Shown here in pieces: positions 15,706-38,520 of a stretch of 38,520 nucleotides of DNA. Both the position numbers and the translations under genes were made by a program. This stretch comes from Planctomycetota bacterium. Its GTDB lineage: Bacteria > Planctomycetota > Phycisphaerae > Phycisphaerales > SM1A02. The stretch is from positions 1-38,520 of the forward strand of contig JACZXL010000001.1 in assembly GCA_022571635.1 (NCBI GenBank), given 5' to 3'. The notes below the pieces were generated by a model. That model had not been told where the DNA came from. It ran no database searches and was given only the letters and a program-made list of their open reading frames with translations. Numbering within the stretch: position 1 is the first letter of the stretch; every line of letters begins with the position of its first letter.

Positions 15706-16779
15706 ATGGACAAGGTCGTGGCACGGAGGCTGCGACCGCACGAAGGCAGGAAGCTGCAGCAACTGAAACGGCAACTGTCCAACGCGGTCAACAGCCGGCG
15801 AGCGAGGGTCATTCTGCTCTCCCGAGGTGGACTTTGCAACCAGAAGGTCGCCCAAGGGGTTGGTCTCAGCCCCCAGTGGGTCAGGCGGATCATCCATCGC
15901 TTCAACGACACTGGGATCGACGGCATCACGTGGTATCCGTACTTCTGCTCCTGCGGCGAGCCGCGCCGGTTCACGCCAGACGTCGTCGAACGGATCGGCG
16001 AAGTCGCTCTCTCGCCGCCGCGGCAGCTCATCGGCATGAGCGTCTGGTCACTGGCGAAGCTGCGTGACTATCTCGTTGAGCAGGGCATCGTCGCGTCGAT
16101 CTCGTTGGAGTGGCTCCGCCAGATCCTGCGGGGGTGCGGCATCCGGTGGCGGCACACGAAGACCTGGATGGACTCGAACGATCCCGAGTTCTGGCCAAAG
16201 TACCAGCGAATCCGCCAACTCTACGACCGCCCGCCGCCGAGGGGCATCCGGCTTTGTCTGGATGAGTTCGGGCCGCTCAATCTGCTTCCGCGGCACGGGA
16301 AGCATTATGCCCGGACCCGACACGTTGATCGGTTGCGCGCAACATACCGACGCACGGGGGGCGTTCGTCACTTCATGGGCCTCTACGACCTCGACCGGGA
16401 CACGTTGACCGGCTACTTCGTCGAGAAGAAGAACCGCCGCACCTTCCTATCGTTCCTTCGGTGGGTGCGGCGGCGGTATCGGAATCGTGGCACGCTTCAC
16501 CTCGTCCTCGACAACGCCACCTTCCACGCCTGTCCCGAGATCCTCGCCTACGCTCGCCCCAACGGCATCCGCTTCTACTGGACGCCAACGAACGCATCAT
16601 GGATCAACCGAATCGAGTGCCACTTCACCGCCTTGCGGAAGTTCACACTCGAGAACACCGACTACGGGAGCCACGATGAGATGCAGACCTCGATCTTCGA
16701 CTACCTGGCATGGCGGAACCGACGCCGCCAAATCAGCGTGCGGGGCTGGACCACCTACCGTCGGAGGCGGGCAGCATGA
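15706..16779 (+). CDS. IS630-family transposase
   Basis: 357-residue DDE transposase. An N-terminal helix-turn-helix (LCNQKVAQGVGLSPQWVRRI, about 43-62) precedes the catalytic core. The catalytic acids are visible in RLCLDEFGPLN (first Asp), LHLVLDNATFH (second Asp) and NASWINRIECHF (Glu). GGAG sits shortly before the ATG. There is no frameshift or internal stop, so it could still be active. It moves the element 15591-16820 by cut and paste at TA. Confidence 0.93.
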   Translation: MDKVVARRLRPHEGRKLQQLKRQLSNAVNSRRARVILLSRGGLCNQKVAQGVGLSPQWVRRIIHRFNDTGIDGITWYPYFCSCGEPRRFTPDVVERIGEVALSPPRQLIGMSVWSLAKLRDYLVEQGIVASISLEWLRQILRGCGIRWRHTKTWMDSNDPEFWPKYQRIRQLYDRPPPRGIRLCLDEFGPLNLLPRHGKHYARTRHVDRLRATYRRTGGVRHFMGLYDLDRDTLTGYFVEKKNRRTFLSFLRWVRRRYRNRGTLHLVLDNATFHACPEILAYARPNGIRFYWTPTNASWINRIECHFTALRKFTLENTDYGSHDEMQTSIFDYLAWRNRRRQISVRGWTTYRRRRAA

Positions 16780-19661: not shown

Positions 19662-20450
19662 ATGGGCAGTCTCGAACAGAGCGCCTGGGATCGCCTACGG
19701 TCCATGAAGGATCCTGGCTCGCGCCGCGACATCGTTTCGCTCGGCTTAGCCAAAGACATCGAGTTGACGGGGCGCATCCTGACGGTCCACCTGGCACCGC
19801 CCAGTGGCGACGCGTACGGACATGAGGCGCTGGCGACTGCGATCCGCCGTGAGCTGGGCCCTCTGGAAGGTATCGACAGAGTCATTGTGACGTGGGCCAA
19901 ACCCAGACCAAACGATGGCGAAAATGGTTCGCCGGCGAGCTCCCCCCTGCATCTGCCGATTCTCAACGATGTCGCCAACCCGGAGTTTGACGCGATGAAC
20001 GCGTCGCTCGGACGGGCCGGCATAGCGCCCGGTGCAGGCTATGGCGATGGCGGACCGGAGCAGTTGCCGTCCCCCGAGTCTGAGATTCCCAACGATCGCT
20101 ATGAAGGTTGGCCTCCCGTCTATCAGTGGGAGATCGACCCGGCCGATCCATCTCTGGTCAGCGGCGAATCCCACGTCAGGATCGGTGACTGGGAGTACGA
20201 CATCTGGTGGCAGGCGCATCCCGCCGACCTCATCTACGCCTCGATTCAGGCGCTGGCAGACGACACGATCACCAGTGGACCGGAGCGTCAGCATCCGATG
20301 GGGCGCAATGTCGTGGTGAATGTGGTCTACGACCGCCGGCGCGAAGCGGTGGTCGCTGTGTACGGAACCGCCCGCGACTTCCGGCCGTTCATCGAAGCAT
20401 TCAGCATGGGCTGCAAGCTAGAGCAACACGCGAAGGAGTCCAACGAATGA
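19662..20450 (+). CDS. MIP18/SufT-like (DUF59) protein heading the nar operon
   Basis: 262 residues from ATG 19662. Residues ~5-85 match the small DUF59 fold used in Fe-S cluster maturation (RLRSMKDPGSRRDIVSLGLAKDI, beta strand ILTVHLAPP, GIDRVIVTW). The usual Cys of the fold is not seen. The remaining ~175 residues (WPPVYQWEIDP, IGDWEYDIWWQ, GRNVVVNVVYD) form a second domain I do not recognise. Its TGA overlaps the narG ATG (ATGA), so it is translationally coupled to NarG. A role in inserting or checking Fe-S clusters of NarGH is a reasonable inference. Confidence 0.65.
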   Translation: MGSLEQSAWDRLRSMKDPGSRRDIVSLGLAKDIELTGRILTVHLAPPSGDAYGHEALATAIRRELGPLEGIDRVIVTWAKPRPNDGENGSPASSPLHLPILNDVANPEFDAMNASLGRAGIAPGAGYGDGGPEQLPSPESEIPNDRYEGWPPVYQWEIDPADPSLVSGESHVRIGDWEYDIWWQAHPADLIYASIQALADDTITSGPERQHPMGRNVVVNVVYDRRREAVVAVYGTARDFRPFIEAFSMGCKLEQHAKESNE

Positions 20451-23400
20451 CGACCGGCCACTCCAATGGCAAAAAATCTCGCTGGTTTCGCGTGGCGGAT
20501 GAGCCGCGGGACTGGGAGGATTTCTACCGCGAACGATGGTCTTACGACCGGTCCGTCCGCACCAGCCACGGCGTGAACTGTTCGGGGTCCTGTTCGTGGG
20601 AGGTGTTCGTCAAGAACGGCCTGATCTGCTGGGAACTCCAGAAGACCGACTGGCCCCAGATCAATTCGGATACTCCCAACTACGAGCCGCGCGGCTGTCA
20701 ACGGGGGATCTCGGCATCGTGGTATCCCTACAGTCCGGTTCGCCCCAAGTATCCGTATATCCGCGGCGTGCTGCTCGATTTTTATGAAAAGGAACGAGCT
20801 GGGGGCAAGGATCCGGTCGAGGCTTGGGCCGCGATCGTCGAAGATCCCGAGCGCAAGAAGACATACCGACAAGCGCGGGGTAAAGCGGGATGGAGACGCA
20901 GTAGCTGGGATCTGGCTACCGAAATCTGGGCGGCGGCCATTATCTATACAACCAAGAAGTACGGTCCGGATCACCTTGCTTCGTTTTCACCCATACCGGC
21001 CATGAGCATGGTGAGCTTCATTTCGGGCCACCGCTTCTGCAACTTGCTCGGCGGAACGATGCTCAGCTTCTACGAGTGGTACCACGATCTGCCGCACGTC
21101 ATGCCCATGATGTGGGGCGATCAAACGGACGTTGCGGAAGCAGCGGACTGGTACCAGAGTACGTACTGGATGGTCATTGGCTCCAACTTGCCCATGACGC
21201 GAACCCCCGATGCGCACTTTGCGTCCGAGTTCAAATACAACGGCGGCAAAATCGTCAACCTGTCGTCAAACTACTCGGACATGACAAAGTTCGCCGACCT
21301 GTGGGTGCCGGTTCGCCCGGGAACGGACGCTGCCTTCCTGCTCGCCTGCATTCACGTGATTCTGCAGGAATGCCACGTCAATCGCGAGGTCAGCTACTTC
21401 CGCGAGTACATCAAGAAATACACGAACCTGCCGTTCATCGTCCAACTGGATCCGTACAAAGACAATCGGTATCTCCAGGGCCGCTTCCTCCGCGCAAGCG
21501 ACTTCTCCCAATATGAGAACGAGGAGAACGCAGACTGGAAACTGCTCATGATGGATCAGGCGAGCGGCGAGTTGAAGCTTCCCGTCGGCACGCTCGGCTT
21601 CCGTTGGGAAGAACAAAAGACCGGAAGGTGGAATCTCAAGTCTGAGGACGCGAGTACGGGTGAGTCGTTTGATCCCATGATCAGTTGCATGGGCGACAAA
21701 GGAACGTTCGAGGAAGTTCAGGTCCTTTTCTCCGATTTCACCGACACCTTTGACACGACGCTCGGCAGCACAGAAGGCAAAGGACGGCCCGCTGTGTCCC
21801 TAACCCGAGGCGTGCCGGTCAGAAAGCTCAAGACCAAAGACGGCAAAGAAATCATCGTTACCACCGCCTTCGATCTGCTTCTGGCACAACTCGGCGTGAA
21901 CCGTGGACTCTCCGGCGATTATCCCAAGGACTATGACGACGCGTCCGTGCCTTACACCCCGGCATGGCAGGAACAGGAGACGGGTGTTGATCGGGAACTC
22001 GTGATCCGAGTCGCTCGGGAGTGGGCGGAGAACTCCGAGAAGACCAAGGGCAAGAGCTTGTTCATCACCGGATCAGGGGTTCTTCACTGGTACCACGGTG
22101 GCACACTTACCTATCGAGCGATGGCCGTGATGGGAATCATCACCGGCTGCATGGGACGAAACGGCGGGGGGTTCAACCACTACGTAGGTACAGAGAAAAT
22201 CCGCCCATTCGCTGCTATTGGAACGCTCGGCGGCGCCTCTGACTGGACAGGTCCGCCGCGACACCAGAACAGCACCTCATACTTTTACTTTCACACCGAC
22301 CAGTGGCGCTACGACGGCATGGTGCTCGATCCCATCTGGGCGCCGTGGGCGGAGAAGTTCCCGGCCAAGGGGAATCATGCCGCAGACTTGAACATGTTGG
22401 CCGTTCGACTCGGTTGGTTACCGTTCTATCCGCAAGTCGACAAGAAGAATCCAATCGAGTTCCTGAAGGAAGCGCGCGCATCCGGCGCCCAATCAGAAAA
22501 AGAGGTTGGTGATTTCGTTGCCAAGAAGTTCAAGGATGGGAGTGAGCGTTTCGCCCTCGAGGATGTGGATGCTGAGGTCAACCACCCCAAAGTGCTGTGG
22601 ATCTGGCGGGGCAACCTCATTGGCACGAGCATGCGCGGCCACGAGTACGGCTTGAAGCACTTCCTTGGCACCCACAACAACGTGCTCGGCCAGGATCGCG
22701 CCGAGGGGCTTGTCAAGGAGGTTGAATGGCACGAACAAGCGCCGCTGGGGAAGCTTGATCTCGTCGTCAACGTCAATCTTCGAATGGACTCGTCGGCCAA
22801 CTACGCCGACATCGTGCTCCCCACAGCTCACTGGTACGAGAAATACGATCTCACCTGCTCGGACCTGCACTCCTTCTTCCATCCGTTCACGCCGGCGCAT
22901 GATCCACCGTGGGAAGCGAAACATGACTGGGAGGTTTTCAAGGCGATTGCGGCCAAGGTGAGCGAGCTGGCTAAGACGCATCTTCCCGATCCGTTCGACG
23001 ACATGGTCATGACGCCGATGATCACGGATTGCCCGGACGAGATGGCTCAGCCAATGGGCGAGCTGCGGGACTGGAAGACCGGTGATGTGGACGTCATCCC
23101 CGGCAAGACGTTCCCCAACGTCAAGATTGTCCAGCGCGACTACACCAAAATCCTCGACAAATACACGACCTTTGGACCGAACGTTTGCCGGCCGGAGGGG
23201 TACGGGTGTAAAGGCATCAAGGGTGATCTCACCGAGGTCTACGAGCAACTCAAGGAGAGTTACCTCGTGGGCGAGAAGGACGGGCGTCCTTCTCTGGAAA
23301 GTGCCGAGCAGGTATGCGAGGTGATTCTGCGGATTTCGCCCGAGAGTGACGGCGAAGTCTCGTACATGATCTTCAAGAACTTGGAGAAGCGCTGTGGGGT

Positions 23401-24211
23401 GCCCTTAGCGCACCTGGTGGAAGGGGAACGTGAAATCCACCACCATTATCCGGAATTGCAATCTCAGCCTCGGCGTAGCCTGACCTCACCGCATTGGTCC
23501 GCCATCGAAAGCCCGGGCCGGACGTACTGCCCCTGGACATTGAACGTTGAAGCCCTCAAGCCGTGGCACACACTGACCGGCCGACAGGAGATCTACTTCG
23601 ACCATCGTGGTTATCGCGAACTCGGTGAGTCGTTGCCTACCTACAAGCCGCCGGTGGACATGGTGAAGATCGGCGACTGTGCGCCGCATCTGGCCGAGGA
23701 GAATTCGAAGGTGTTCCGCTTCTTGACGCCGCACGGTAAGTGGCAGATTCACAGCATGTTCTGGGACACTTGGCACATGCTCAACATGTTTCGAGGCGGC
23801 CAGGTGGTCTGGATCAACGACGACGATGCAAAGGAGATCGGCGTCAAAGACAACGATTGGGTTGAGATCTACAACGAGAACGGGATCGCCAATGTGCGAG
23901 CCGTAGTGACAGGAACGGTGCCGCGCGACACGGCCATCATGTACCACTCGTCGGAGCGCCATATCGCCGTGCCCTTCTCACCCTTGGCGCGGAAGCGCAA
24001 AGTCAGTGATCTACGAGGGGGAAACAACAACGCCACGACGCGGATCATGATGAACCCCGCCACCATGATCGGGGGCTACGCCAACTGGACGTACTTCCTC
24101 AACTATTGGGGAACCAGTCCGTCGGAGCGGGATTGCGCCGTATTGATACGCAAGATGCCGTTGGAGTCTGGTCCCAAGAAGGTCATCTACCAAGAGAAAG
24201 ATCTTCGGTGA
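20447..24211 (+). CDS. narG: Respiratory nitrate reductase alpha subunit (Nar/Nxr type)
   Basis: 1254 residues, close to E. coli NarG (1247). The start is set by the ATGA overlap with the preceding gene. There is no Tat signal, so it is cytoplasm-facing. The FS0 cluster ligands H41, C45, C49 and C84 keep exactly the spacing of E. coli H49/C53/C57/C92. The molybdenum-ligand region GDQTDVAEAADWYQSTYW retains the Asp. GSNLPMTRTPDAHF and the C-terminal molybdopterin-binding domain are also present. It reduces nitrate to nitrite with bis-MGD; Nitrobacter-type nitrite oxidoreductases are close relatives, so direction cannot be decided from this alone. The neighbours narH, narJ, narI and narK favour a membrane NarGHI complex. 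Confidence 0.96.
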   Translation: MTTGHSNGKKSRWFRVADEPRDWEDFYRERWSYDRSVRTSHGVNCSGSCSWEVFVKNGLICWELQKTDWPQINSDTPNYEPRGCQRGISASWYPYSPVRPKYPYIRGVLLDFYEKERAGGKDPVEAWAAIVEDPERKKTYRQARGKAGWRRSSWDLATEIWAAAIIYTTKKYGPDHLASFSPIPAMSMVSFISGHRFCNLLGGTMLSFYEWYHDLPHVMPMMWGDQTDVAEAADWYQSTYWMVIGSNLPMTRTPDAHFASEFKYNGGKIVNLSSNYSDMTKFADLWVPVRPGTDAAFLLACIHVILQECHVNREVSYFREYIKKYTNLPFIVQLDPYKDNRYLQGRFLRASDFSQYENEENADWKLLMMDQASGELKLPVGTLGFRWEEQKTGRWNLKSEDASTGESFDPMISCMGDKGTFEEVQVLFSDFTDTFDTTLGSTEGKGRPAVSLTRGVPVRKLKTKDGKEIIVTTAFDLLLAQLGVNRGLSGDYPKDYDDASVPYTPAWQEQETGVDRELVIRVAREWAENSEKTKGKSLFITGSGVLHWYHGGTLTYRAMAVMGIITGCMGRNGGGFNHYVGTEKIRPFAAIGTLGGASDWTGPPRHQNSTSYFYFHTDQWRYDGMVLDPIWAPWAEKFPAKGNHAADLNMLAVRLGWLPFYPQVDKKNPIEFLKEARASGAQSEKEVGDFVAKKFKDGSERFALEDVDAEVNHPKVLWIWRGNLIGTSMRGHEYGLKHFLGTHNNVLGQDRAEGLVKEVEWHEQAPLGKLDLVVNVNLRMDSSANYADIVLPTAHWYEKYDLTCSDLHSFFHPFTPAHDPPWEAKHDWEVFKAIAAKVSELAKTHLPDPFDDMVMTPMITDCPDEMAQPMGELRDWKTGDVDVIPGKTFPNVKIVQRDYTKILDKYTTFGPNVCRPEGYGCKGIKGDLTEVYEQLKESYLVGEKDGRPSLESAEQVCEVILRISPESDGEVSYMIFKNLEKRCGVPLAHLVEGEREIHHHYPELQSQPRRSLTSPHWSAIESPGRTYCPWTLNVEALKPWHTLTGRQEIYFDHRGYRELGESLPTYKPPVDMVKIGDCAPHLAEENSKVFRFLTPHGKWQIHSMFWDTWHMLNMFRGGQVVWINDDDAKEIGVKDNDWVEIYNENGIANVRAVVTGTVPRDTAIMYHSSERHIAVPFSPLARKRKVSDLRGGNNNATTRIMMNPATMIGGYANWTYFLNYWGTSPSERDCAVLIRKMPLESGPKKVIYQEKDLR

Positions 24212-24260
24212 CACTCGGCGCGACGTTGGGCATGATCCGACGATCTAGGAGACCGGTCTG

Positions 24261-25805
24261 ATGCAGGTCAAACAACAGATGGCGATGGTGTTCAACCTCG
24301 ACAAATGTCTGGGCTGCAACACGTGCACGCTCGCATGCAAGAACATCTGGACCAACCGCGAAGGCGCGGAGTACATGTTCTGGAACAACGTCGAGACCAA
24401 GCCAGGGATCGGCTATCCCAAACAGTGGGAGAATCAGGAGAAATATCGGGGTGGTTGGAAGCGGAAACCCTCTGCCGACGGACCAGCGCTGAATATCGGG
24501 TCGCGGTTCTGGATGATGATCAATCTTTTCTATAACCCCGTCATGCCGCAGATGGATGAATATTACGGCAAAGGGCCGTTCACGTTCACCTACGAGGATC
24601 TTCATTCCGACAAGCCGACAAAGTTTTCGCAGCCGGTGGCGCGGCCTAAATCGCAAATCACCGGAGAGGAAGACATAGCCATCGAGTATGCGGTCAACTG
24701 GGAGGACAACGGCGCTGGGGCGACCGAGGACGGCCTCGGCGGGATGGACGTGAACTTCAGCAATATGACGGACGTGGAACGAAAGGCGCTGCTGAGCTTC
24801 CGCGATTCGTTCATCATGTACCTGCCCCGCATTTGCAATCATTGCATGAACGCGCCTTGTGTCGCGGCATGTCCGAGCGGCGCTGCCTACAAACGCGAAG
24901 AGGACGGCGTCGTTCTCATCGATCAGAACCGCTGCCGCGCGTGGCGGTACTGTATTTCAGGATGCCCCTATAAAAAGCCGTACTTCAACTGGCGCACCGG
25001 GAAGATGGAAAAGTGCATCCTGTGCTATCCGAGGCTTGAAGCCGGACAACCGCCCGCATGCTTCCACGCTTGCCCAGGTCGCATCCGTTATATGGGTCCG
25101 CTTCTTTACGACATGGATCGCGTACCCGAAGCCGCCAACGCGCCTGAAGAAGACCTCGTTCAAGCGCAACGCGACATCATCCTCGATCCGAACGATCCGG
25201 AGGTGCTCGCCGCAGCACACGAAGCGAACATAAGCGAAGCGTGGCTCGATGCATGCCGACGATCTTCCGTGTACCGGATGGTCAAGGATTGGGAGATTGC
25301 TCTGCCTTTGCACCCGGAGTTCCGTACGCTTCCATGCCTGTTTTATATCCCGCCTGAAAGCCCGGTGCGAACGCGTGCCGATGGAAGCGACTGTATCAGC
25401 ATGGTGAACGGGCACAGCGTCCTACCGAACCTCGACGACTTCAGAATCCCCGTGAAGTTCCTGGCCAGCTTGTTTTCTGCGGGCCACGACCAGCCGGTCA
25501 AGACGGCGCTTCTGCGACAGTTGGCGGTCCGCGCCTTTCGGCGCTCGGAGCGCGTGGAAGGCGAACTCGATCTGAAGGTACTTCAGAGCGTTGGTCTTAC
25601 CGAGAAAGATGCGAGGGACATGCACCGCTTGCTGGCGCTGGCGCACTTCCACGAACGTTTTGTCATTCCAACGACCCGCCGCGAGCGCACGGCAAATTCA
25701 CCGTACATTGAGCGCGGATTCTCGGGCTTCAGCGAGATGACGCCGTCCGATGCGCCCCGTCGCCGGAGCTTCTTCCACGGTCGACGCGAAGAGGTGGGGA
25801 GCTAA
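24261..25805 (+). CDS. narH: Nitrate reductase beta subunit, Fe-S protein
   Basis: 514 residues. It carries four Fe-S clusters that conduct electrons between NarI and NarG. The first Cys group C16, C19, C22, C26 (CLGCNTCTLAC) is at the same residues as in E. coli NarH. CNHCMNAPCVAACP is the second. CRAWRYCISGCPYKKP has Trp instead of the second Cys, the hallmark of the 3Fe-4S cluster. CILCYPRLEAGQPPAC completes the set. GGAG precedes the ATG by 9 bases. It starts 49 bases after narG. Confidence 0.96.
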   Translation: MQVKQQMAMVFNLDKCLGCNTCTLACKNIWTNREGAEYMFWNNVETKPGIGYPKQWENQEKYRGGWKRKPSADGPALNIGSRFWMMINLFYNPVMPQMDEYYGKGPFTFTYEDLHSDKPTKFSQPVARPKSQITGEEDIAIEYAVNWEDNGAGATEDGLGGMDVNFSNMTDVERKALLSFRDSFIMYLPRICNHCMNAPCVAACPSGAAYKREEDGVVLIDQNRCRAWRYCISGCPYKKPYFNWRTGKMEKCILCYPRLEAGQPPACFHACPGRIRYMGPLLYDMDRVPEAANAPEEDLVQAQRDIILDPNDPEVLAAAHEANISEAWLDACRRSSVYRMVKDWEIALPLHPEFRTLPCLFYIPPESPVRTRADGSDCISMVNGHSVLPNLDDFRIPVKFLASLFSAGHDQPVKTALLRQLAVRAFRRSERVEGELDLKVLQSVGLTEKDARDMHRLLALAHFHERFVIPTTRRERTANSPYIERGFSGFSEMTPSDAPRRRSFFHGRREEVGS

Positions 25806-25809
25806 AGTC

Positions 25810-26505
25810 ATGTGTACCGCGGACCTCACGGCAAGCTACCAGCTCATCAGTGAGTTGCTGCTCAATCCACAGGAGCGTGATCCGGCGTTGGTCAAGAGAC
25901 TGCATCGCTTTCTGGAAGAGGCGAACGAGGACGTTGAGCGCTGGATCGCCAAGTTCCTCGCCACTCCCGGTTCCACGTCGCGCGACGAGTACGTGCAGAC
26001 GCTCGAACTCTCACCGCCCTGCCCGCTGTACCTCGGATCGTATCTCTTCGACGAGCCGACCACGTGCAACGGCGTCGGCACGTCGGGGCGGAACGCGTAT
26101 ATGCTTGAATTGGCGGGCATTTACGGTCATTTCGGATTCGATATCACGGCGCGCGAACTTCCCGACTATTTGCCGGCCATCGTTGACTTTCTGTGGATCA
26201 GCCTGGAGAACCAGGATCGCGACGGCATTGGGTTGCGTCGACGATTCGTCGAGCAATATGTCTTTCCCGGTCTCAAACCGCTGAAAGCGGCGCTGCAAAA
26301 ATACAAGAGTCCGTATGCCTTGCTCGTCTCGGCCCTGCAAAGCGCGGTGGAGCAAGACCTGAGCCGAATGGCTGATGATGCACCCGCCTGGAAGCCGGCT
26401 GAAGAAGCATCGGGGACTCGCGTGTCTCTGCCGGTTCTGTCCGGGACGGGCGGCGATGTGCCGATCCGAGAAACGCTGGCGAGCCACGGGGAGGTTCGGC
26501 CATGA
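25810..26505 (+). CDS. narJ: Nitrate reductase assembly chaperone NarJ
   Basis: 231 residues from ATG 25810, four bases after the narH stop and preceded by GGAG. This is the all-helical TorD/NarJ fold: LISELLLNPQERD near the start, then PPCPLYLGSYLFDEPTT, ELAGIYGHFGF and ELPDYLPAIVDFL, which are family landmarks. NarJ holds apo-NarGH until the molybdenum cofactor and clusters are inserted and it docks to NarI. It is not part of the final enzyme. Confidence 0.92.
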   Translation: MCTADLTASYQLISELLLNPQERDPALVKRLHRFLEEANEDVERWIAKFLATPGSTSRDEYVQTLELSPPCPLYLGSYLFDEPTTCNGVGTSGRNAYMLELAGIYGHFGFDITARELPDYLPAIVDFLWISLENQDRDGIGLRRRFVEQYVFPGLKPLKAALQKYKSPYALLVSALQSAVEQDLSRMADDAPAWKPAEEASGTRVSLPVLSGTGGDVPIRETLASHGEVRP

Positions 26506-26585
26506 GTGCGTTCGCTCCCAAGCAGTGCGGCGCGGCAGGCAGCGTCCATTGGTAAGGGATTCCGTAACCACGATACACCACTATC

Positions 26586-28364
26586 ATGTCGCGCGCAACT
26601 GAAACACTCGTGGTCTTCACGTGCCTTGCGGTGCTCTCCGTGCTGTCGTGGTTCGTGGTGCGGCAGATCGCTGAGTATTCCTCGTCACTGGAATCGCAAG
26701 TCGCTCAAGCTCCGCCGCTCGTTATTGACACTGCGCCTCCGCCGCTGGTTGTCTCGGAGCAACCAGCGCAGGTGTCGATACCCCAAACTCCGCCAGCTAG
26801 CCCCGCGGGGCAACCGCAGTCCATCGTCGAAGGACTTCGTGCGCACAACGGCGCAAGAAGTTACGCCGAACCAAGTGAGAAGTCAGCTATGAACAACTTT
26901 CTTTGGGGCGTTTACCCGTATCTATGTATCGTGCTGTTCTTCGCGGTGCCGCTGATCCGGATGGTCTTCCGACCATTCTCATGGAGCACTCGCGCCAGCG
27001 GCTTGTTCGGTCGCAAACTGCTTGGCGCGGCCTCGCTGTTGCTTCATTGGGGGCTTGCGCTGGTGTTGTTGGGACACCTCACGGGACTGATCGGAGGCGT
27101 GCTCGGGTCGCAAGGCGCGGTCACGTTCTTTTATTGGTCCGGACTGCTCGGGGGCTCCATGGTGCTGGTGGGATCGGTGATCGCGCTGTATCGCCGGTTG
27201 ACGACGCCGGAAGTGCGCGCGATGAGCCAAGTTGACGACTTCGTCGTTCACCTGTTCATCATCCCGATCGTGGGGCTCGCCCTCTACCAGGTGCTCGTTC
27301 ATCGGATCTTTGGCGTCGCATTCGGGGCGTCCACTTGGGCTGCGAGTTTGTGGACCCTCTCACCACAGCCGGAGCTGATGGCCTCGGCAAGTCTTATTAC
27401 CAAGCTGCACATCTTGCTCGCGCTGACCTTCTTCGCGTACTTCCCCTTCACAAAACTGGTTCACTTCTGGACGTTCCCCATCAACTACTTTGTCCGCCCG
27501 TACCTCTCGATGCGTACGCAGCGCTATCGCTTCCAACGCCGTTGGGAATTCGCATGGCGGAGCGACAAATCCTGGCTTACCTATGGACTGGGCTCCGTGG
27601 CGGTGATCTTCCTCGTCGCCGCGATGTTGTTGGGGCGAACGCAGCCATCCGAAGCGTCGGGGATTGCTTTGACGTCGACAGCGTTGGAGACGAACAACGG
27701 GTCTCTACTGACAGGGTACGCCCTATATGTGAGTCAATGTGCCCGCTGCCACGGCGTTCATGGGCGCGGCGACGGTTCCGGCGCAAACTCCCCGACATTC
27801 TCGGCGCCGCCGCGCGACCTCATCGCCGCCCGCTACCACTTCGTGTCTACGGAAAACGGCATCGCCTCCGATGATGATCTGTACCGCACAATCTACCGGG
27901 GGCTCAGCAATACCGGGATGCCGGCATTCGCTGATCTGACCAATGGGCAGATCGTTTCATTGATCGATGTGCTCAACGATTTTCGTGCCGATGGGTCGAA
28001 GCCCGGCCGACCGATCGCGGTGGGGCCGCCCCCGCCTGCGACCGAGCAAAGCATCGCGCGCGGTCAAGCGTTGTATGTCGAAGCATGCGCTAACTGTCAT
28101 GGCGCTGAAGGTAGGGGTGACGGCGAGAGTTTGTCCTTTGACTACCTTCAACAACGGGTCGTTCCCGCGGATCTCAGGGCGGGTGACATCAAATCCGGCG
28201 ACGATCCCGAGCAGATATACCTCCGCATCACGACTGGAATCCCCGGAGGGTACGAGGGAGCGTACATCATGCTGAACTTCGGCCAACTCTCAGAGGCCGA
28301 TCGGTGGGCCCTGGTCCATTACCTCAAGACTCAGATCATGCCCGCGTCCGACGAGTCTGAATGA
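26586..28364 (+). CDS. narI: NarI (cytochrome b) fused to a diheme cytochrome c
   Basis: 592 residues, against about 225 for ordinary NarI. Residues 1-101 are an extension with one membrane helix (about 8-27) and a Pro-rich linker. NarI begins at Met102 and keeps the four b-heme His: H154/H164 (spacing 10) and H275/H293 (spacing 18), as in E. coli H56/H66 and H187/H205. An extra helix (about 332-350) then crosses the membrane, followed by two cytochrome c domains, CARCH 385-389 and CANCH 501-505. The extra helix puts these hemes in the periplasm, as required. Start choice is uncertain: neither ATG 26586 nor Met102 (26889) has a good ribosome site. Thermus NarC, a separate cytochrome c working with NarI, is a functional precedent. 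Confidence 0.9.
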   Translation: MSRATETLVVFTCLAVLSVLSWFVVRQIAEYSSSLESQVAQAPPLVIDTAPPPLVVSEQPAQVSIPQTPPASPAGQPQSIVEGLRAHNGARSYAEPSEKSAMNNFLWGVYPYLCIVLFFAVPLIRMVFRPFSWSTRASGLFGRKLLGAASLLLHWGLALVLLGHLTGLIGGVLGSQGAVTFFYWSGLLGGSMVLVGSVIALYRRLTTPEVRAMSQVDDFVVHLFIIPIVGLALYQVLVHRIFGVAFGASTWAASLWTLSPQPELMASASLITKLHILLALTFFAYFPFTKLVHFWTFPINYFVRPYLSMRTQRYRFQRRWEFAWRSDKSWLTYGLGSVAVIFLVAAMLLGRTQPSEASGIALTSTALETNNGSLLTGYALYVSQCARCHGVHGRGDGSGANSPTFSAPPRDLIAARYHFVSTENGIASDDDLYRTIYRGLSNTGMPAFADLTNGQIVSLIDVLNDFRADGSKPGRPIAVGPPPPATEQSIARGQALYVEACANCHGAEGRGDGESLSFDYLQQRVVPADLRAGDIKSGDDPEQIYLRITTGIPGGYEGAYIMLNFGQLSEADRWALVHYLKTQIMPASDESE

Positions 28365-28453
28365 CCCATCATGGGCCGAACACTTACCCGGCATGAGTCT
28401 GCGGCACGCGGGTAGAGGGGCCTGCGTACTCACTCGTGCGAGGCGACGGTCAA

Positions 28454-30001
28454 ATGAACGAACAGTTCGGACCTGGAGATCGCGGTCGAGCGTGGTGGAT
28501 TCTCGCCATGAACACGTTCGCATTCACGGTCTGCTTCGCAGCGTGGATGATGAACGGTGTGCTCATCACGTTCCTGGTGGACAACGGCATACATGACTGG
28601 GATCCGGCCGAGATGGGATGGCTCATCGGCATCCCGGTGCTCACCGGCGCGATCTTTCGCTTGCCACTGGGCTTGGCGACGGATAAGTGGGGCGGCCGGA
28701 TCGTATACGGCCTGCTTCTGCTCCTGGCCGCAATCCCCATGTTCTTGGTCAGCTATTGCAACACCTATTGGCATTTCTTCGTGGCCGGCCTGGGGTTCGG
28801 TTTTGCCGGCACAAGTTTTGCGATCGGTATCGCCTACACATCCGTCTGGTTTCCCTCGAGACTGCAGGGGACGGCCCTGGGGATCTTCGGCGCAGGGAAC
28901 GCAGGCGCGGCGCTCACGGCGGTCGGTGCACCGCGCGTGCTGAATTGGCTGACGAACAATGGCGAGCAGCTCGACCAATGGAGACAGCTCCCGAAGATCT
29001 ATGCGGTGATGCTTGCGGTGACGGGAGTGATCTTCCTTCTCACCACCAAAACCCGCATACCTGCAGGAAGCGCTCAAAAAACCCTCAGTCAGCGGCTGAT
29101 CCCCTTGAAGTCCATCCGCGTGTGGCGCTTCGGCTTGTACTATTTCTTCGTGTTCGGCGGCTTCGTGGCGCTTGCGCAATGGCTCGTGCCGTATTACGTC
29201 AACGTCTATTCCACGACCGTGGTGCTGGCGGGCACGTTGACCGCCGTCTTCAGCTTTCCCTCCGGGGTGATTCGCGCCGCGGGCGGCTGGATGTCCGACA
29301 AGTTCGGGGCCCGGGCGGTGATGTACTGGGTGTTTGGCCTTTCCGTCATATGTTGTGCTTTACTGATCGTTCCGCAGATGGATATTCACGCTCCCGGCAG
29401 CGGCCTCATGGCCAGGTTCTCGGGAACGGTCGTCTCTGTCTCCGATGCGCAGATCGTTGTTGAATCGGACAAAACAGGGGTCAAGACCTATACGCTCACG
29501 CCGCGCCAGGGGGACCTTGTCACCGACGATGATCGCCACTCAGGGCTGCTAATCTGGCCTCGTTCGATGTCGTGGCAGGAACCGGTCGTCGAGGTGGGGG
29601 ACGCGGTTGGCAAGAAGGAGTTGTTGGCGCGCGGCGTCACACAAATCTTCTTTCAGGCCAACATCTGGATCTTCACCGGCCTGTGTTTCATCATCGGCTC
29701 ACTGATGGGAATCGGCAAAGCCGCGGTGTACAAGCACATTCCAGATTATTTCCCCAACGATGTAGGCGTGGTCGGCGGCATCGTGGGCGTCCTTGGGGGT
29801 CTTGGCGGTTTCGTTTGCCCCGTGATCTTTGGCTACTTGCTCCGTGAGACCGGCCTGTGGACGACCTGTTGGATGTTCTTCTTCGTCTTGGTTGCTGCGT
29901 TGCTCTTTTGGATGCACGTCGTTGTTCGTCGAATCATGAAGCAACAAGCTCCGGAGTTCCTGCGGGAAATCGAGTCGGGCCCCGTGATTCTAAAGGATTA
30001 G
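28454..30001 (+). CDS. narK: NarK-type nitrate/nitrite transporter with an extramembrane insertion
   Basis: 515 residues from ATG 28454 (GAGG 9 bases upstream). Twelve-helix MFS protein of the NarK group: IFRLPLGLATDKWGGR and IRAAGGWMSDKFGAR hold the two substrate-binding Arg, and GAGNAGAAL is the nitrate signature. Residues about 312-395 form a hydrophilic insertion (starting RFSGTVVSVSDAQIVVES, with VGDAVGKKELLARG near its end) that ordinary NarK lacks. It could fold as a small beta barrel. It sits 90 bases after narI and 3 before the next transporter. Confidence 0.88.
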   Translation: MNEQFGPGDRGRAWWILAMNTFAFTVCFAAWMMNGVLITFLVDNGIHDWDPAEMGWLIGIPVLTGAIFRLPLGLATDKWGGRIVYGLLLLLAAIPMFLVSYCNTYWHFFVAGLGFGFAGTSFAIGIAYTSVWFPSRLQGTALGIFGAGNAGAALTAVGAPRVLNWLTNNGEQLDQWRQLPKIYAVMLAVTGVIFLLTTKTRIPAGSAQKTLSQRLIPLKSIRVWRFGLYYFFVFGGFVALAQWLVPYYVNVYSTTVVLAGTLTAVFSFPSGVIRAAGGWMSDKFGARAVMYWVFGLSVICCALLIVPQMDIHAPGSGLMARFSGTVVSVSDAQIVVESDKTGVKTYTLTPRQGDLVTDDDRHSGLLIWPRSMSWQEPVVEVGDAVGKKELLARGVTQIFFQANIWIFTGLCFIIGSLMGIGKAAVYKHIPDYFPNDVGVVGGIVGVLGGLGGFVCPVIFGYLLRETGLWTTCWMFFFVLVAALLFWMHVVVRRIMKQQAPEFLREIESGPVILKD

Positions 30002-30004
30002 CGC

Positions 30005-31606
30005 ATGGCGAACCTGGAACATTGGGACGTAGAGAACGACGAATTCTGGGAAAACACCGGAAAGAAGATCGCCCGGCGCAACCTGTGGATCTCAATCCCG
30101 AGCCTGCTCTGCGGGTTTGCGGTTTGGCTGTACTGGGGCATCATCACCGTACAGATGCTCAACCTTGGATTCCCCTTTGAACAGGCAGATCTCTTTACGC
30201 TCACGGCGATTGCAGGGTTGGCTGGCGCCACGCTGCGAATCCCCAGTACGTTCTTCATCAGAATTGCCGGCGGTCGGAACACCATCTTCTTCACCACCGC
30301 CCTGTTGATGATACCAGCGGCAGGAACCGGCTTTGCGCTGCGGAACATTGATACGCCTCTGTGGGTGTTTCAGCTTCTGGCGCTGCTCACTGGGTTTGGC
30401 GGCGGGAACTTCGCTTCGTCCATGTCCAACATCAGCTTCTTCTTCCCCAAACGAGTGCAGGGCACGTCGCTTGGCCTCAACGCCGGGCTCGGCAACTTCG
30501 GCGTCACCACCATGCAGATCCTGGTCCCGTTAGTGATGACTTTTGGGATATTCGGTGGCGACTCGATGACACTCGTCAACTCCAGCGGAACGCTGATCGG
30601 AAAAATCGAGGCCGGCACGGAGACCTACATTCACAACGCGGGCTTTATTTGGCTGGTGTTCTTGATTCCGCTTGCCTTTGCAGGCTGGTTCGGGATGAAC
30701 AACATCAAGACCGAGGCGGTGACGCCTGAGTTGGACGGACCTATTCCCGCATTTGTCAGAATCACCTTCCTACTGGCGATCGCTCTAGTGACGGCCACCG
30801 CCGGGCTTTATCTCATTCTGCCCAAGCCGACTGGTCTGGAGCTTCTTAGTAAGTGGGTCGTCCTACCGCTCGTGATTGCCGGAACGGTCATTCTCATGCG
30901 GTTTCTGAGCTGGGGAAGCCTCAAGGCCAATCTGAAGCGGCAGTACCAGATATTCTCCAACAAGCACACTTGGGCTATGACCGTCATCTACACGATGACC
31001 TTTGGATCGTTCATTGGCTATTCTGCAGCGTTTCCGCTTGCGATCAAGGTCATCTTCGGCTTTCAGCATCTGACCGTTGACGGTGTGCTGACTCACAACA
31101 CGGTGAATCCTAATGGACCGAGTGCGCTCATGTTCGCATGGATGGGGCCGTTCATCGGCGCGCTGATTCGACCGGTCGGTGGATGGATCGCCGACAAGGT
31201 GGGCGGGGCGAAGGTGACTCAGATCGTCTCGATCGTGATGATCCTCTCGGCGCTCGGTGTCGCGTATTTCATGAAGATGGCTTATCAGTCAGCAACGCCG
31301 GAGCAGTACTTCTGGCAGTTCTTCGTGCTCTTTATTATTCTCTTCACGGCCACAGGTATGGGCAATGGGTCGACGTTCCGTACGATCGCCGTTGTGTTCA
31401 ATGCGGAGCAGGCGGGTCCGGTGCTCGGGTGGACCTCAGCCGTGGCGGCATACGGGGCGTTCATCATCCCAAAGGTTTTCGGAGAGCAGATCAAGGCGGT
31501 GACGCCTGAGTATGCCCTGTATGGTTTCGCGGTCTTCTACTTCATATGCCTGGTGCTCAACTGGTGGTTCTATTTGCGGCCCAACGCCTATGTGAAGAAT
31601 CCTTAG
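30005..31606 (+). CDS. narK: NarK/NarU-type nitrate/nitrite transporter
   Basis: 533 residues. It starts RRNLWISIPSLLCGFAVWLYW like E. coli NarK. Arg78 in ATLRIPSTFF and Arg389 in LIRPVGGWIADKVGG match the two nitrate-binding Arg of NarK (R89, R305). GLNAGLGNFGVTTMQ is the nitrate signature. Three bases separate it from the first transporter, so they are co-transcribed. Paired NarK1/NarK2 proteins commonly split nitrate/proton import and nitrate/nitrite exchange; which is which cannot be told here. It is the last gene of the operon, and no clear terminator hairpin follows. Confidence 0.93.
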   Translation: MANLEHWDVENDEFWENTGKKIARRNLWISIPSLLCGFAVWLYWGIITVQMLNLGFPFEQADLFTLTAIAGLAGATLRIPSTFFIRIAGGRNTIFFTTALLMIPAAGTGFALRNIDTPLWVFQLLALLTGFGGGNFASSMSNISFFFPKRVQGTSLGLNAGLGNFGVTTMQILVPLVMTFGIFGGDSMTLVNSSGTLIGKIEAGTETYIHNAGFIWLVFLIPLAFAGWFGMNNIKTEAVTPELDGPIPAFVRITFLLAIALVTATAGLYLILPKPTGLELLSKWVVLPLVIAGTVILMRFLSWGSLKANLKRQYQIFSNKHTWAMTVIYTMTFGSFIGYSAAFPLAIKVIFGFQHLTVDGVLTHNTVNPNGPSALMFAWMGPFIGALIRPVGGWIADKVGGAKVTQIVSIVMILSALGVAYFMKMAYQSATPEQYFWQFFVLFIILFTATGMGNGSTFRTIAVVFNAEQAGPVLGWTSAVAAYGAFIIPKVFGEQIKAVTPEYALYGFAVFYFICLVLNWWFYLRPNAYVKNP

Positions 31607-31828: not shown

Positions 31829-32153
31829 TCAGGCAGCGCGTCGGTATCGATGATGCAGGCCGCCGATAACAGGCTCGGCAACAACCCGGCCTTGGTCTGG
31901 CCACTCAACCTCTCGACGCGTCGGTGAGTTGCCGTCGGGCGATTGATGTGGCCGGTCCGTGTCGTAGTACTCGAAGTACTCACTGAGAACTCGAATCAGA
32001 TGTGCCTCGTTCAGGACGATGATGTGATCAAGGCACTCGCGACGAGTCGAGCAGGCGCTCGGCGTATCCGTTCTGCCACGGGGAGCGCGGGGCCGTCGAC
32101 ACTTCCTTGATTCCCAGATTGGCAATCCGAGAGCGAACGACATCTCCGTAGAT
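31829..32153 (-). pseudogene. Integrase-type transposase, C-terminal remnant with frameshift
   Basis: From 32153 the minus strand reads IYGDVVRSRIANLGIKEV and TAPRSPWQNGYAERLLDSSR. After a frameshift near 32045 it continues RECLDHIIVLNEAHLIRVL, YFEYYDTDRPHQSPDG, GRVVAEPVIGGLHHRY. This is the last half of an rve transposase, including the catalytic Glu region. The N-terminal half is gone. With the N-terminal half at 16823-17204 it represents the same family of elements, each copy having kept a different part. Confidence 0.8.
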
Positions 32154-32398: not shown

Positions 32399-33844
32399 TC
32401 AGACGGGCGAAGTCAGGCGTCCATTCCTCCCGAACGCAATCCGCAGCCACGTCGCCACCAGCGCAAACAGGAAGAGCGCCGTGCCACATCCTGCGCTGGC
32501 GAAAACATAATAGTTGCAACTCTGGAGCCATTCGGGCGGCGGCAGGAGTTGGTATCGCGTATAGCCCACGATGATGCCGGAGATGTGCAGCCACACGATG
32601 AGCGCGCCCGCCATGACGTTCAGCCCCACGATGAGGAATCGCATGCGCGGCGAATGAAGAACCGCATCTGCGCCCGTGCGCCGGGTCAGGACCTCGCTCA
32701 GAATCCACGAGACGGCGGCGAAGAGCACCATGCTGTCGATCCCGATTTCCGTGCCCATAGCATGTGCGGTCACCACATGCGTGCCGTGCACGAGCGCATT
32801 GAGCGGAGGCACCGAAAGCAGCAACGAGGTGAACAGCATTGCGCACGTCCACCATTTTGCGGCGACGATGAAACAACGCGTCGAGTTGAACGGATCACCC
32901 TTTCGGCGCGAAGACATCCGTGCAATATCCGAGATGATCCGAATCAGGATGAGCGCCTCGGTCATGCTCACGATGAAACTGATCCACTTGACCACCTCGC
33001 TCTGCGGGACGTGGTAGGTGTGGTGGGCGAAGTTCGTAAAGGAGTTGAGCAATCCCACCCCAAAGAGCGCGTAGGCCATCTTGGAGTAGGCGTAGTCTTT
33101 ATCGCCGGAGAGTTTCTCGCCGACGTAGTACAGGGTTCCGTACACGAGGAGATTGAAACTGCCAACCAGGGTTCCCGTCGCCTTCCACTGGAGTCGAAGA
33201 TCGACGATTGGGGAGTTGAAGACACCCTTGAACAGCCATACATGCTGCTCCAGAAACGTGTAGATAAAGAGCAATGCGCCGACACCCCACATGGTCACGT
33301 ACACAGGCCGGCCCCAGAACCGGCGCCCGACTGCGCGAAAAAAGTTCCACGCAAAGAGGAGCCAGCCGAGCAAGATCGCGGCCGAAAAGGCGGGATGGAA
33401 TCCCATGTATTCGCGGCCGGATGAGATCCCCATCGCCAGCGTTACCAGGATTCCCATCCCCGTCAATCCCCAGAGTGAAACCTGCACGAGCAGGCGCCGG
33501 CGTTCGGCGCTTGTGGTGGCGCCGCCGTGATCCTGGAGGTAGTGGTGCACGACCGCGATGCCGCCGAGGAATATCCATGCGGACGCAAAGGTCGTGTGAA
33601 TCGGTCGCAATGCCGCGAAACTCAACCCGGGGCGCACGAGAAACGAGGCAGCGCCGGGAATGTAAAACAACACGGCCAGGACTCCGGCTCCGACCGTGAT
33701 CGCCAGCGACACCAGGCTGCCGCGAAGAAACGTCAGCGTGGCGTAGCGGCGAACCGGATCGACGGATACATACCATGGCGAATCTTCGCCCGAATCAACG
33801 GCCGCCTCATCCTGTGTCTCGCGCGGGGCGTTCGGCGGAATCAT
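32399..33844 (-). CDS. Divergent NorB-like heme-copper oxidase subunit I
   Basis: 481 residues from ATG 33844 (ATGA overlap with the upstream cytochrome gene). About twelve membrane helices. NO-reductase/cbb3 hallmarks include LRPIHTTFASAWIF with the heme b His (H83), NFAHHTYH with the metal-site pair H274/H275, and VHGTHVVTAHAMG with the high-spin heme His (H361). Three positions depart from NorB. Counting 51 residues back from H274, as in NorB His207-His258, gives T223 in QWKATGT instead of His. The catalytic Glu211 position falls on Val227. His349, the second heme b ligand, is Met363 (AHAM). The fold is clear; the chemistry is not. It could be an unusual NO reductase or dismutase, or a non-catalytic electron-transfer subunit. 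Confidence 0.8.
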   Translation of the reverse strand: MIPPNAPRETQDEAAVDSGEDSPWYVSVDPVRRYATLTFLRGSLVSLAITVGAGVLAVLFYIPGAASFLVRPGLSFAALRPIHTTFASAWIFLGGIAVVHHYLQDHGGATTSAERRRLLVQVSLWGLTGMGILVTLAMGISSGREYMGFHPAFSAAILLGWLLFAWNFFRAVGRRFWGRPVYVTMWGVGALLFIYTFLEQHVWLFKGVFNSPIVDLRLQWKATGTLVGSFNLLVYGTLYYVGEKLSGDKDYAYSKMAYALFGVGLLNSFTNFAHHTYHVPQSEVVKWISFIVSMTEALILIRIISDIARMSSRRKGDPFNSTRCFIVAAKWWTCAMLFTSLLLSVPPLNALVHGTHVVTAHAMGTEIGIDSMVLFAAVSWILSEVLTRRTGADAVLHSPRMRFLIVGLNVMAGALIVWLHISGIIVGYTRYQLLPPPEWLQSCNYYVFASAGCGTALFLFALVATWLRIAFGRNGRLTSPV

Positions 33845-34623
33845 CGAAACTCCCACCACGGCACATGGGGCCAGGCAACGCCGTCGCTCTGGGTCGGTTC
33901 GGTCGCCGCCGCGCGCAACACGGCGCGGTGTTCGCCCAGCCACATGAGAAACTCGTATGTCAATTCCCGCCCCTGGGCAGAGAGTGACGGGGCAGGCATG
34001 CCGGGAAGACGGCCGTTCTCCAGCACCTCCATGATCTGCGAATAAATCAGGCGATCGCCCACGTCGATCAGATCAGGCGCGATTGTACTTGCTTGCCCCA
34101 ACTGGATGTGACATCCCTGACACCCTCGGCTCATGAAGAGGTTGAATCCCTCGATTGCGTTAGCATCATCAGACACGGCAAGTTCCTGCTCGATGGCCTG
34201 CAACAGCCGCGAGGCGGGATCTTCACCGGCAAATCTCGCCTGCCCGCGACCGGTGTCGTTCATCGCTGCCAGAAACGCGCTGAAGGCCTCGATCTCATCC
34301 GAAGAAAGATTGAATGACGGCATCTGCTCGGATCCCACGGTCAACAAATGCTCCAGACGCTCGGGCGTCAGTCGTTGGGTCGCATTGGTCAGGTCGGGGC
34401 CGAGGAATCCCCCGAACCCGTAGAACTGATGACAACTCTGGCAATTGTGGCGGTGCCAGATTCGACGTCCTTCGCGTGCTGCGTCGGACAGCGGCGGACT
34501 GTCAGAGGCATCGAAATAGACGAGGCTACTCTGTATGAAAAAGCACGAGACGAGGACGAGCATCAAGCCCTGCTTGGTAGGTATGCTGCAGGGCATACAC
34601 CAGAATCCGCGTTCGTTCGCCAT
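33841..34623 (-). CDS. NorC-like membrane-anchored diheme cytochrome c
   Basis: 260 residues from ATG 34623; earlier (34698) and later (34596) Met codons are possible and none has a strong ribosome site. One membrane helix (about 20-37), then EGRRIWHRHNCQSCHQFYGF (heme 1, C61-H65), like NorC's GKxxW...CxxCH, and a second heme CQGCH at 168-172. Candidate Met ligands are in EQMPSF and LPGMPAPS. Ordinary NorC has one heme. It is coupled to the NorB-like gene by ATGA and is most likely its electron-entry subunit. The 315 bases upstream hold a short tandem repeat and the divergent P450 promoter. Confidence 0.85.
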   Translation of the reverse strand: MANERGFWCMPCSIPTKQGLMLVLVSCFFIQSSLVYFDASDSPPLSDAAREGRRIWHRHNCQSCHQFYGFGGFLGPDLTNATQRLTPERLEHLLTVGSEQMPSFNLSSDEIEAFSAFLAAMNDTGRGQARFAGEDPASRLLQAIEQELAVSDDANAIEGFNLFMSRGCQGCHIQLGQASTIAPDLIDVGDRLIYSQIMEVLENGRLPGMPAPSLSAQGRELTYEFLMWLGEHRAVLRAAATEPTQSDGVAWPHVPWWEFR

Positions 34624-36861: not shown

Positions 36862-36930
36862 TTACGCCGCTTCTCGAAGGTAATGATTGATAAGTCCGCC
36901 GAGCCGTTCCCGTATGGTTTCAGGATTCAG
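36862..36930 (-). pseudogene. Possible transposase tail fragment
   Basis: A 22-codon minus-strand segment ending LGGLINHYLREAA then TAA, preceded directly by an in-frame TAG. It looks like the tail of a mobile-element protein, but I cannot name the family. A 14-base direct repeat CCCGTATGGTTTCA at 36909-36922 and 36442-36455 links this segment to the start of the IS5 remnant. The rest of 36646-37012 shows nothing I recognise. Confidence 0.3.
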
Positions 36931-37012
36931 CTAACGGCCGATTCGTGGGGTGTCACCAATCTGAAGTCGCAGCGAGCGGGTCGGTTGCCGGCGCGGGCTG
37001 ATTTTCGTCCGC

Positions 37013-37429
37013 CTATGCGCTGACGAGGCCGACGGGCTTGAACTCGTGCTGGGGCAAAACGACACGCAGGTTCGGGTTGCCCAAGTGCACGTGCACCAGC
37101 TCCGCCAGCACGTCCCGGAAGTCCGTCGTATGCAGCAGGTCGCGGCCTTCGTGAAGTTGATCTGGCCCGAGTCCGGGCCAGTCGGCGACGACCTTGCGCT
37201 CGCCACCGGCGGCGCGATTGGCCCGCGCGACCGCCCCGCCGAGCAGGAGCATGCAGTTCGCCCAGCCGTGATCGGTCCCCGCCGTGCCGTTTTCCGCGGC
37301 GGTGCGCCCGAAGTCGGTGAGGGTGACGACAACGACGTCGTCCAGACGTTCCTCGAGGTCGTGGGCGAAAGCGCTCATCGATGTGGGCGAGCCAGAGGCG
37401 GATGAAGAAGAGCCAGCTTGGTCGAAGCC
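37013..37429 (-). pseudogene. DUF1501 protein, C-terminal fragment
   Basis: The minus strand reads DDVVVVTLTDFGRTAAENGT, GTDHGWANCMLLLGGAV, WPGLGPDQLHEGRDLLHTTD, FRDVLAELVHVHLGNP. This is the conserved C-terminal third of the DUF1501 family (about 400-470 residues, abundant in Planctomycetes, distant from sulfatases). The N-terminal two thirds are absent; the frame upstream of 37429 stays open but loses the family pattern and runs antisense to another fragment. Confidence 0.75.
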
Positions 37430-37469
37430 AATAGGCCACACGATCGAGATCGTCCCCGAGGCTTCCATC

Positions 37470-37595
37470 ATGTTCACGAACCCGCTTGCGTACCTGATCG
37501 CCCTCACTGCTCTCGTCAGCCTGGCCGCGACTACGGCCTTCGCGCAGCCCTCGCAGGCTCCATTCCCCGGTGCGTTTACTTCGTCCAATTGGTAA
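37470..37595 (+). CDS. Short signal-peptide-like ORF, probably a gene fragment
   Basis: 41 residues: a strong signal sequence (LAYLIALTALVSLAATTAFA) with a likely cleavage site after AFA, followed by only ~18 residues of no known family and a stop. It reads like the start of an exported protein whose remainder has been lost. There is no clear ribosome site. It may not be expressed. Confidence 0.3.
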   Translation: MFTNPLAYLIALTALVSLAATTAFAQPSQAPFPGAFTSSNW

Positions 37596-37636
37596 TCATT
37601 CACCAGTAGGGAATCCCGCCGTGATAAGCTCCGTCC

Positions 37637-37960
37637 ATGGACTATGAAAAAGTGATGAGTGTGATACAGAGCCAGGCCGATGCTGCCTTCGAGGTTGAAC
37701 GAAGCCGCAGGGTTGTCGTCGAAGTACTTGTTCTCCCTCAGGAGTATACGCTCGGGCCACGAAACGCGACCGTGAGTGTTGAGCTAAGTAACACAGACGT
37801 GAAATTCTATGACGTGTCGATGAGTTACGTTGATGACCTATTTGCTGCAGAGGAAACCCATTTATTGAAGGAAGCTCTTGAGGAATGGCGCGATAATAAT
37901 TACGCAGACCGTCCACTTTTTTCAGGGGAATGTTCAAGACGCGGCCGACGTCGCGGATGA
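37637..37960 (+). CDS. Small hypothetical protein running into dnaE
   Basis: 107 residues. The first ~90 (from MDYEKVMSVIQSQADAAF through VVEVLVLPQEYTLGP, VSVELSNTDVKFYDVS to LLKEALEEWRD) look like a small alpha/beta protein with a regular composition; I do not recognise the family. The last ~18 residues (from RPLFSG) are antisense to dnaE sequence, so the native C-terminus was probably replaced at a recombination junction near 37910. The base composition is AT-richer than its neighbours. Confidence 0.45.
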   Translation: MDYEKVMSVIQSQADAAFEVERSRRVVVEVLVLPQEYTLGPRNATVSVELSNTDVKFYDVSMSYVDDLFAAEETHLLKEALEEWRDNNYADRPLFSGECSRRGRRRG

Positions 37961-38520
37961 CCGCTTTCGCTTTCAACTTGCCGAACGTGCCGATCTGGGC
38001 CACGCAATCTGTACCGTATTTCTCCTTCGTGTAGTCGATGACCAGTTGCCGCCGGTCGCGGCAGAAGTCGATGTCGATATCGGGCGGCTCGTTGCGGCTG
38101 GGGTCGAGAAACCGCTCGAACAGCAGGTCGTACTTGAGCGGGCAGACGTCGCTCATGCCGAGCACGTAGGCGACCAGCGCCCCGCAGGCCGAACCGCGTG
38201 CCGTGCTGGGAATCCCGTTTTCCTCTGCGAACCGCACGAAATCCCACACGATGAGGAAGTAACTCGCGTAGCCCTTTTGCTCGATGATGCTCAACTCGTA
38301 GGAGAGCCGCTTCCGATGCTTGTCGCCCACCTCGTCGCCGTACCGTTCGATGAGTTTCTGTTCGCACAGTTCTCGCAGGTACTCGACGTCGGTCTTGCCC
38401 GCGGGCGTGTGAAACACGGGAAAGTGACGCGTAGCCAAATCGAGACCGATGTCGCAGCGATCAGCAATTTCCTGGCTGTGGGCGACGGCGTCGGGATGAT
38501 CGGGAAATGCCGCGTACATC
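37911..38520 (-). pseudogene. dnaE: DNA polymerase III alpha subunit (DnaE) fragment, cut at both ends
   Basis: 203 residues running off the right window edge. Landmarks: RLSYELSIIEQKGYASYFLI, RGSACGALVAYVLG, PLKYDLLFERFLDP, then EPPDIDIDFCRDRR with the first two catalytic Asp, GTDCVAQIGTFGKLKAKAVI and RVLNIPLKKVD. Homology stops abruptly at ~37911, before the third catalytic Asp, and the frame continues into unrelated sequence to 37596. As a replicative polymerase it could not work in this form. Either this is a truncated second copy or the contig is chimeric here. Confidence 0.8.

Follow-up and report, generated by a model that had tools for sequence, protein, structure and literature searches.

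A two-gene locus of a planctomycete encodes a NorB-like membrane subunit that has lost two of the six histidines of the heme-copper superfamily, together with a NorC-like cytochrome. Because the replacements are alike in all relatives found, they mark a conserved, phylum-wide enzyme family of Planctomycetota rather than a lone broken gene. The six-histidine signature is regarded as a hallmark of heme-copper enzymes, and here a family lacking one third of it retains its cytochrome partner and lies near genes for nitrate and N2O reduction. Such a family would represent either NO reductases whose active site is built differently or an offshoot without catalytic activity. In both cases, surveys of genomes that score such genes as norB may wrongly estimate how much NO and N2O is turned over by planctomycetes, a group often found in sediments, groundwater and wastewater.

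Gene pair and subunit identity

Both genes lie on the reverse strand of the window, the whole stretch of 38,520 nucleotides analysed. P0001 (481 aa; 33844-32399, ATG start at 33844) is a NorB/CcoN-like heme-copper-superfamily subunit and a polytopic membrane protein, and P0002 (260 aa; 34623-33841) is a NorC-like diheme c-type cytochrome with an N-terminal membrane anchor and a C-terminal PWWEFR; an alternative P0002 start is possible at an ATG further upstream (34698). Stop and start codons overlap as ATGA at 33841-33844, read directly in the sequence, and the two genes are presumably translationally coupled.

P0001 matches Pfam COX1 (PF00115) across residues 38-450 with 78.9 bits (cut-off 34.8; E 4.8e-22). 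No NCBIfam equivalog was reached (ccoN TIGR00780, 29.8 bits against a cut-off of 583), and as a single sequence P0001 had no match in the PDB. A six-sequence profile of the family matched NorB 4xyd_A (2.3e-12) before cbb3 3mk7_A (1e-7), which, with the COX1 match, supports the NorB-like fold proposed in the initial annotation. P0002 contains two CxxCH motifs: CQSCH (residues 61-65; 34429-34443), followed by a NorC-like FGGFLGPDLTN and a predicted Met101, and CQGCH (residues 168-172; 34108-34122), with a predicted Met209. The best PDB matches of its first domain are NorC structures (4xyd_B, 1.3e-7; 3o0r_C, 3.8e-6), in line with the diheme NorC-like partner described at the outset; a domain search for a cupredoxin match in P0002 returned none. 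A structure prediction from three near-identical sequences was discarded (pLDDT 36.7, pTM 0.22).

A c-type cytochrome gene sits directly upstream of the core gene in every locus with enough upstream sequence, locus L097 being too near a contig end to judge. Among 37 partner genes examined, 26 encode a diheme cytochrome and 11 a monoheme one.

Ligand replacements

Profile-profile alignment with cNOR and multiple alignments agree on H83, H274/H275, E296, H353, H361 and M363. The low-spin heme ligand H83 (33596-33598; NorB His60) is present in 48 of 49 sequences, the sole exception being a fragment; the FeB-type ligands H274-H275 (33020-33025; His258/259) are present in 48/48 full-length copies and the proximal heme b3 ligand H361 (32762-32764; His347) in 49/49. 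Retention of these histidines, first read from P0001, thus extends across the planctomycete family. The replacement of the low-spin ligand His349 by M363 (32756-32758) extends equally far: methionine occupies this column in 49/49 family sequences and histidine in 12/12 cNOR/cbb3 comparison sequences, and the bis-His low-spin heme b pattern (His60/His349) is accordingly absent. P0001 therefore has four of the six histidines; Met stands in for a low-spin His, and the His of helix VI has given way to Gly, or in subfamily II to Asp. E199 (33248-33250), a family hallmark missing from cNOR and cbb3, is found in 47/48 sequences. All of these positions, and those of the helix-VI segment and E296 below, are on the reverse strand.

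In helix VI, K221-A-T-G224 (33173-33184) lies where FeB ligand His207 is expected and provides no ligand. The alignment register to cNOR is uncertain by one residue in this helix. With W220 as anchor, His207 faces G224, while the counterpart of Glu211 is either G228 or a deletion of one residue; with N231 (Glu215; conserved in 48/48 of the family alignment) as anchor, His207 and Glu211 face T223 and V227. The initial annotation had placed T223 and V227 at His207 and Glu211, an assignment that depends on the N231 anchor. The ligand loss stands, as helix VI contains no metal ligand in either register, but the positions do not hold with W220. Only the His258/259 equivalents thus remain of the FeB set His207/His258/His259/Glu211. 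The accompanying claim that the catalytic glutamate was lost is correct for Glu211 but not for the active-site Glu280, which is kept as E296 (32957-32959) in 40/40 sequences of subfamilies I and III and in 0/8 of subfamily II. H201, considered as a substitute at the FeB site, was rejected: it sits at the end of helix V, 23 residues before the site, and is missing in subfamily II.

NorQ and NorD insert FeB into cNOR, which without them is hemylated yet inactive (PMC9976466); qNOR requires neither (PMC9976466). The NorQ domain CbbQ_C (PF08406) was found in 0/49 pair-bearing genomes, with an Azospirillum control record positive. Together with the lack of helix-VI ligands, the missing NorQ points away from a cNOR-type FeB, although another metal, or unaided FeB insertion, may be compatible with its absence.

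A conserved planctomycete family

Homologue searches in overlapping sets of 101, 301 and 392 genomes around the host yielded the 49 sequences analysed, which come from planctomycete genomes of many families. A contig scan with one sequence returned only relatives 99% and 96% identical, in Planctomycetota MAGs; the viral contigs searched held no family relatives, and plasmid tblastn gave nothing but canonical cNOR-, qNOR- and cbb3-type matches. In two trees, midpoint-rooted and with long branches, the family forms a single clade outside cNOR, qNOR, NO-dismutase-like proteins, cbb3 and another local HCO group. No match to a characterised activity emerged, which fits the novelty that the initial annotation had suspected. 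The family is under purifying selection, with dN/dS of 0.14-0.30 among close relatives.

Three subfamilies differ at positions 221, 224, 276, 278 and 296. Subfamily I (n = 36, including the window) has Lys221 (35 K, 1 R), Gly224 (35/36), T276, H278 and E296, and subfamily III (n = 4) has the same residue set, giving K/R221 in 40/40 and G224 in 39/40 sequences of the two. Subfamily II (n = 8) has H221, D224 and H276 and is without H278 and E296. Loss of E296 in subfamily II coincides with Asp at the His207 position, and D224 with H274/H275 could form a possible 2-His-1-Asp set. Both the exchange of E296 for D224 and the invariance of the HH pair speak for a retained working distal pocket.

Association with nitrogen-oxide respiration

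The family is tied to nitrogen-oxide respiration by genomic association. In the window the pair comes after narG, narH, a narJ-like gene, narI and two MFS nitrate-type transporters (20207-31606, forward strand), with transposase debris between; narI, encoding nitrate reductase gamma (26586-28364), is fused to two cytochrome c domains. Downstream of the pair in two genomes of the same genus (G151, G186), beyond an opposite-strand frame, come a diheme cytochrome gene, nosZ, nosD and the gene of an ABC ATPase. In other genomes, with distances taken from fragmented MAGs, nosZ lies 8.7 kb from the pair (G317) and RIC (TIGR03652) 3.1 kb (G095) or about 3-4 kb (G356). The latter genome has narG at about 15 kb and a NarK-type transporter directly upstream of the pair (TIGR00886, 303 bits, just below the 311.7 cut-off).

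The share of genomes with NarG or NosZ is higher where the pair is present (32/49) than elsewhere (6/31; Fisher p 5.6e-5, uncorrected for shared ancestry), an association that, like the nar/nos/RIC linkage, was noticed in the data and not predicted beforehand. No long-ORF canonical NorB match was found in 26 of the 32 genomes with narG or nosZ and the pair, including all 16 with nosZ. Neither narG nor nosZ was detected in 17/49 pair-bearing genomes. NirK matched 0/80 genomes, so that the NO source is not evident and a co-occurrence test is uninformative.

Several further features of these loci were recorded. Five loci (L078, L083, L096, L104 and L112; binomial p about 1e-7) have, no more than about 2.2 kb from the pair, a gene for a beta-eliminating lyase of the tryptophanase/tyrosine-phenol-lyase type, and a similar-looking PLP lyase frame is present in the window at 3-1049, 31 kb from the pair and followed by a radical SAM-like gene. 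In one genome (G022; L076:2923-5616) the second gene upstream of the pair encodes an arsenite-oxidase-like molybdopterin subunit (Molybdopterin + Rieske_3). The window also contains two NorE-like (cytochrome-oxidase-subunit-III-like) proteins identified by eye (9982-11223 and 17491-18837), both with an inserted CxxCH segment and with no subunit I nearby. A transposase-like gene lies at 15706-16779, and an integrase-core remnant at 31829-32143, between narK and the pair, suggests rearrangement. At the contig end, what seem to be pieces of DNA polymerase III alpha and of a DUF1501-like protein (36927-38519), again recognised by eye, look like rearrangement or misassembly.

Proposed working and alternatives

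Our leading interpretation, for which the arguments seem to us evenly balanced, is that the pair forms a terminal reductase resembling NorBC, in which heme b is His/Met-ligated and the non-heme site is remodelled and perhaps devoid of FeB, and that it acts in N-oxide respiration or NO removal. P0002 and P0001 would form a NorBC-type membrane complex. Judged from the ligands, electrons would enter through the diheme NorC-like subunit and pass via low-spin heme b to high-spin heme b3. The low-spin heme would be held by His83 and Met363 and is expected to be more oxidising than a bis-His heme; heme b558 of cytochrome bd is a precedent for a His/Met-ligated membrane heme b. Heme b3 would be held by His361, with the FeB cage beside it replaced by His274/His275, the conserved Lys221 and Glu296, and the non-heme site would be empty or hold a metal in a non-cNOR way. 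NO would be bound and reduced, for respiration or detoxification, in planctomycetes respiring nitrate or nitrous oxide. We give about even odds that this occurs at heme b3, in a distal pocket whose shape is set by E296 and K221.

The broader proposition is doubtful: throughout the phylum, the family would use heme b3 for the reduction of NO or some other N-oxide, dispense with a classical FeB/CuB centre and draw its electrons from a His/Met heme b. If true, a conserved complex that functions would violate the histidine-sextet rule twice. An FeB-free NO reductase would represent unusual chemistry, because cNOR without FeB is inactive (PMC9976466). Also counting against an NO reductase are subfamily II, which lacks E296, the NirK result and the 17 pair-bearing genomes devoid of narG and nosZ.

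The same inactivity of FeB-less cNOR (PMC9976466), the absence of NorQ from all 49 genomes and a helix VI devoid of metal ligands in both registers would suit a non-catalytic role as electron carrier, gate or NO/O2 sensor. Electrons would run from the c hemes through a high-potential His/Met heme b to an FeB-less heme b3, which as a five-coordinate heme would bind gas reversibly. We consider such a role unlikely: the strict HH274-275, and E296 in subfamilies I and III, make little sense unless the distal pocket works, and subfamily II, which has no E296, has acquired D224 and H221, apparently as an active site that compensates for the loss.

These subfamily swaps (221, 224, 276, 278 and 296), the invariant HH pair and a deep clade of its own outside cNOR/qNOR would also be expected of a catalytic reductase with another substrate (O2, nitrite, hydroxylamine or another N-oxide) and another metal, bound by His274/His275 with Lys/Glu/His or, in subfamily II, by a D224-H274-H275 triad. 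Against this quite improbable alternative, the oxygen-reductase-type active-site Tyr is missing at the cbb3 position, cNOR is the best structural relative and the genomic context is that of N-oxide respiration.

A sequencing or assembly artefact, or a frameshifted or decaying P0001 gene, as might be suspected in a MAG of 363 contigs with 6.3% contamination and from the adjoining transposase remnant (31829-32143), is refuted by a pattern identical in 49 genomes of many families, by the dN/dS values and by the retained operon structure, and its probability is close to nil.

Comparison with known systems

The main paper on NOR families, nNOR included, is that of Murali et al. 2024, and the present family may already have been described. 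Among divergent NOR-type HCOs, which are often mis-annotated, eNOR, sNOR and gNOR have a cupredoxin subunit II, and it is an altered residue elsewhere in the active site that defines these three and CuA-NOR (PMC8756737). By that description, identity with eNOR, sNOR or gNOR was rejected, since the partner here is a c-type cytochrome and not a cupredoxin. The initial annotation's suggestion of membership in one of the recently split families is not supported for any of these four, CuA-NOR included. Metagenome surveys report, in the passages considered, Planctomycetota norB near nar clusters (PMC10732223) and Phycisphaerae that have norBC but no nitrite reductase (PMC11266412); their 'norB' probably includes the P0001 family, and missing ligands go unmentioned in those passages.

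NO dismutase, a qNOR-like protein of Ca. Methylomirabilis, is likewise a NOR relative with substituted FeB surroundings. One FeB His is replaced by Asn and a Glu by Gln (PMC3413370), in a superfamily for which the same paper states the six-His signature. The present family instead keeps HH (48/48) and E296, is changed at helix VI and lacks the fused N-terminal domain. NO dismutase identity was rejected, the HN and Gln signature being missing from the family and present in planctomycete NOD-like genes in the same alignment. Three planctomycete qNOR-like genes carry this signature (HN for HH, Gln for Glu280): L114 (G328:C56:50172-51593), L119 (G423:C235:8232-9593) and L122 (G420:C56:881-2254). 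Another HCO group (L127-L134) of about 500 aa with all six His, recognisable by the motifs IHDLVGLFVTP, GVHHF and HFTDWV..HxHL, is present in several pair-bearing genomes.

With cbb3 CcoN the family shares the fold, the H83/HH/H361 positions, the RPxHT motif and a c-type cytochrome partner; it differs in lacking the helix-VI His, a Tyr at the cross-link position and a C-terminal extension, and in its low-spin His-to-Met change. Compared with cNOR (NorBC of Pseudomonas, Paracoccus and Roseobacter), His207, Glu211 and Glu138 are gone, His349 is Met, the partner is usually diheme, the genomes are without NorQ and the clade is separate. What the two share is the two-subunit layout with a NorC-like cytochrome upstream, His60, His258, His259 and His347, the Ca-site Glu135 (E145) and, in subfamilies I and III, Glu280 (E296).
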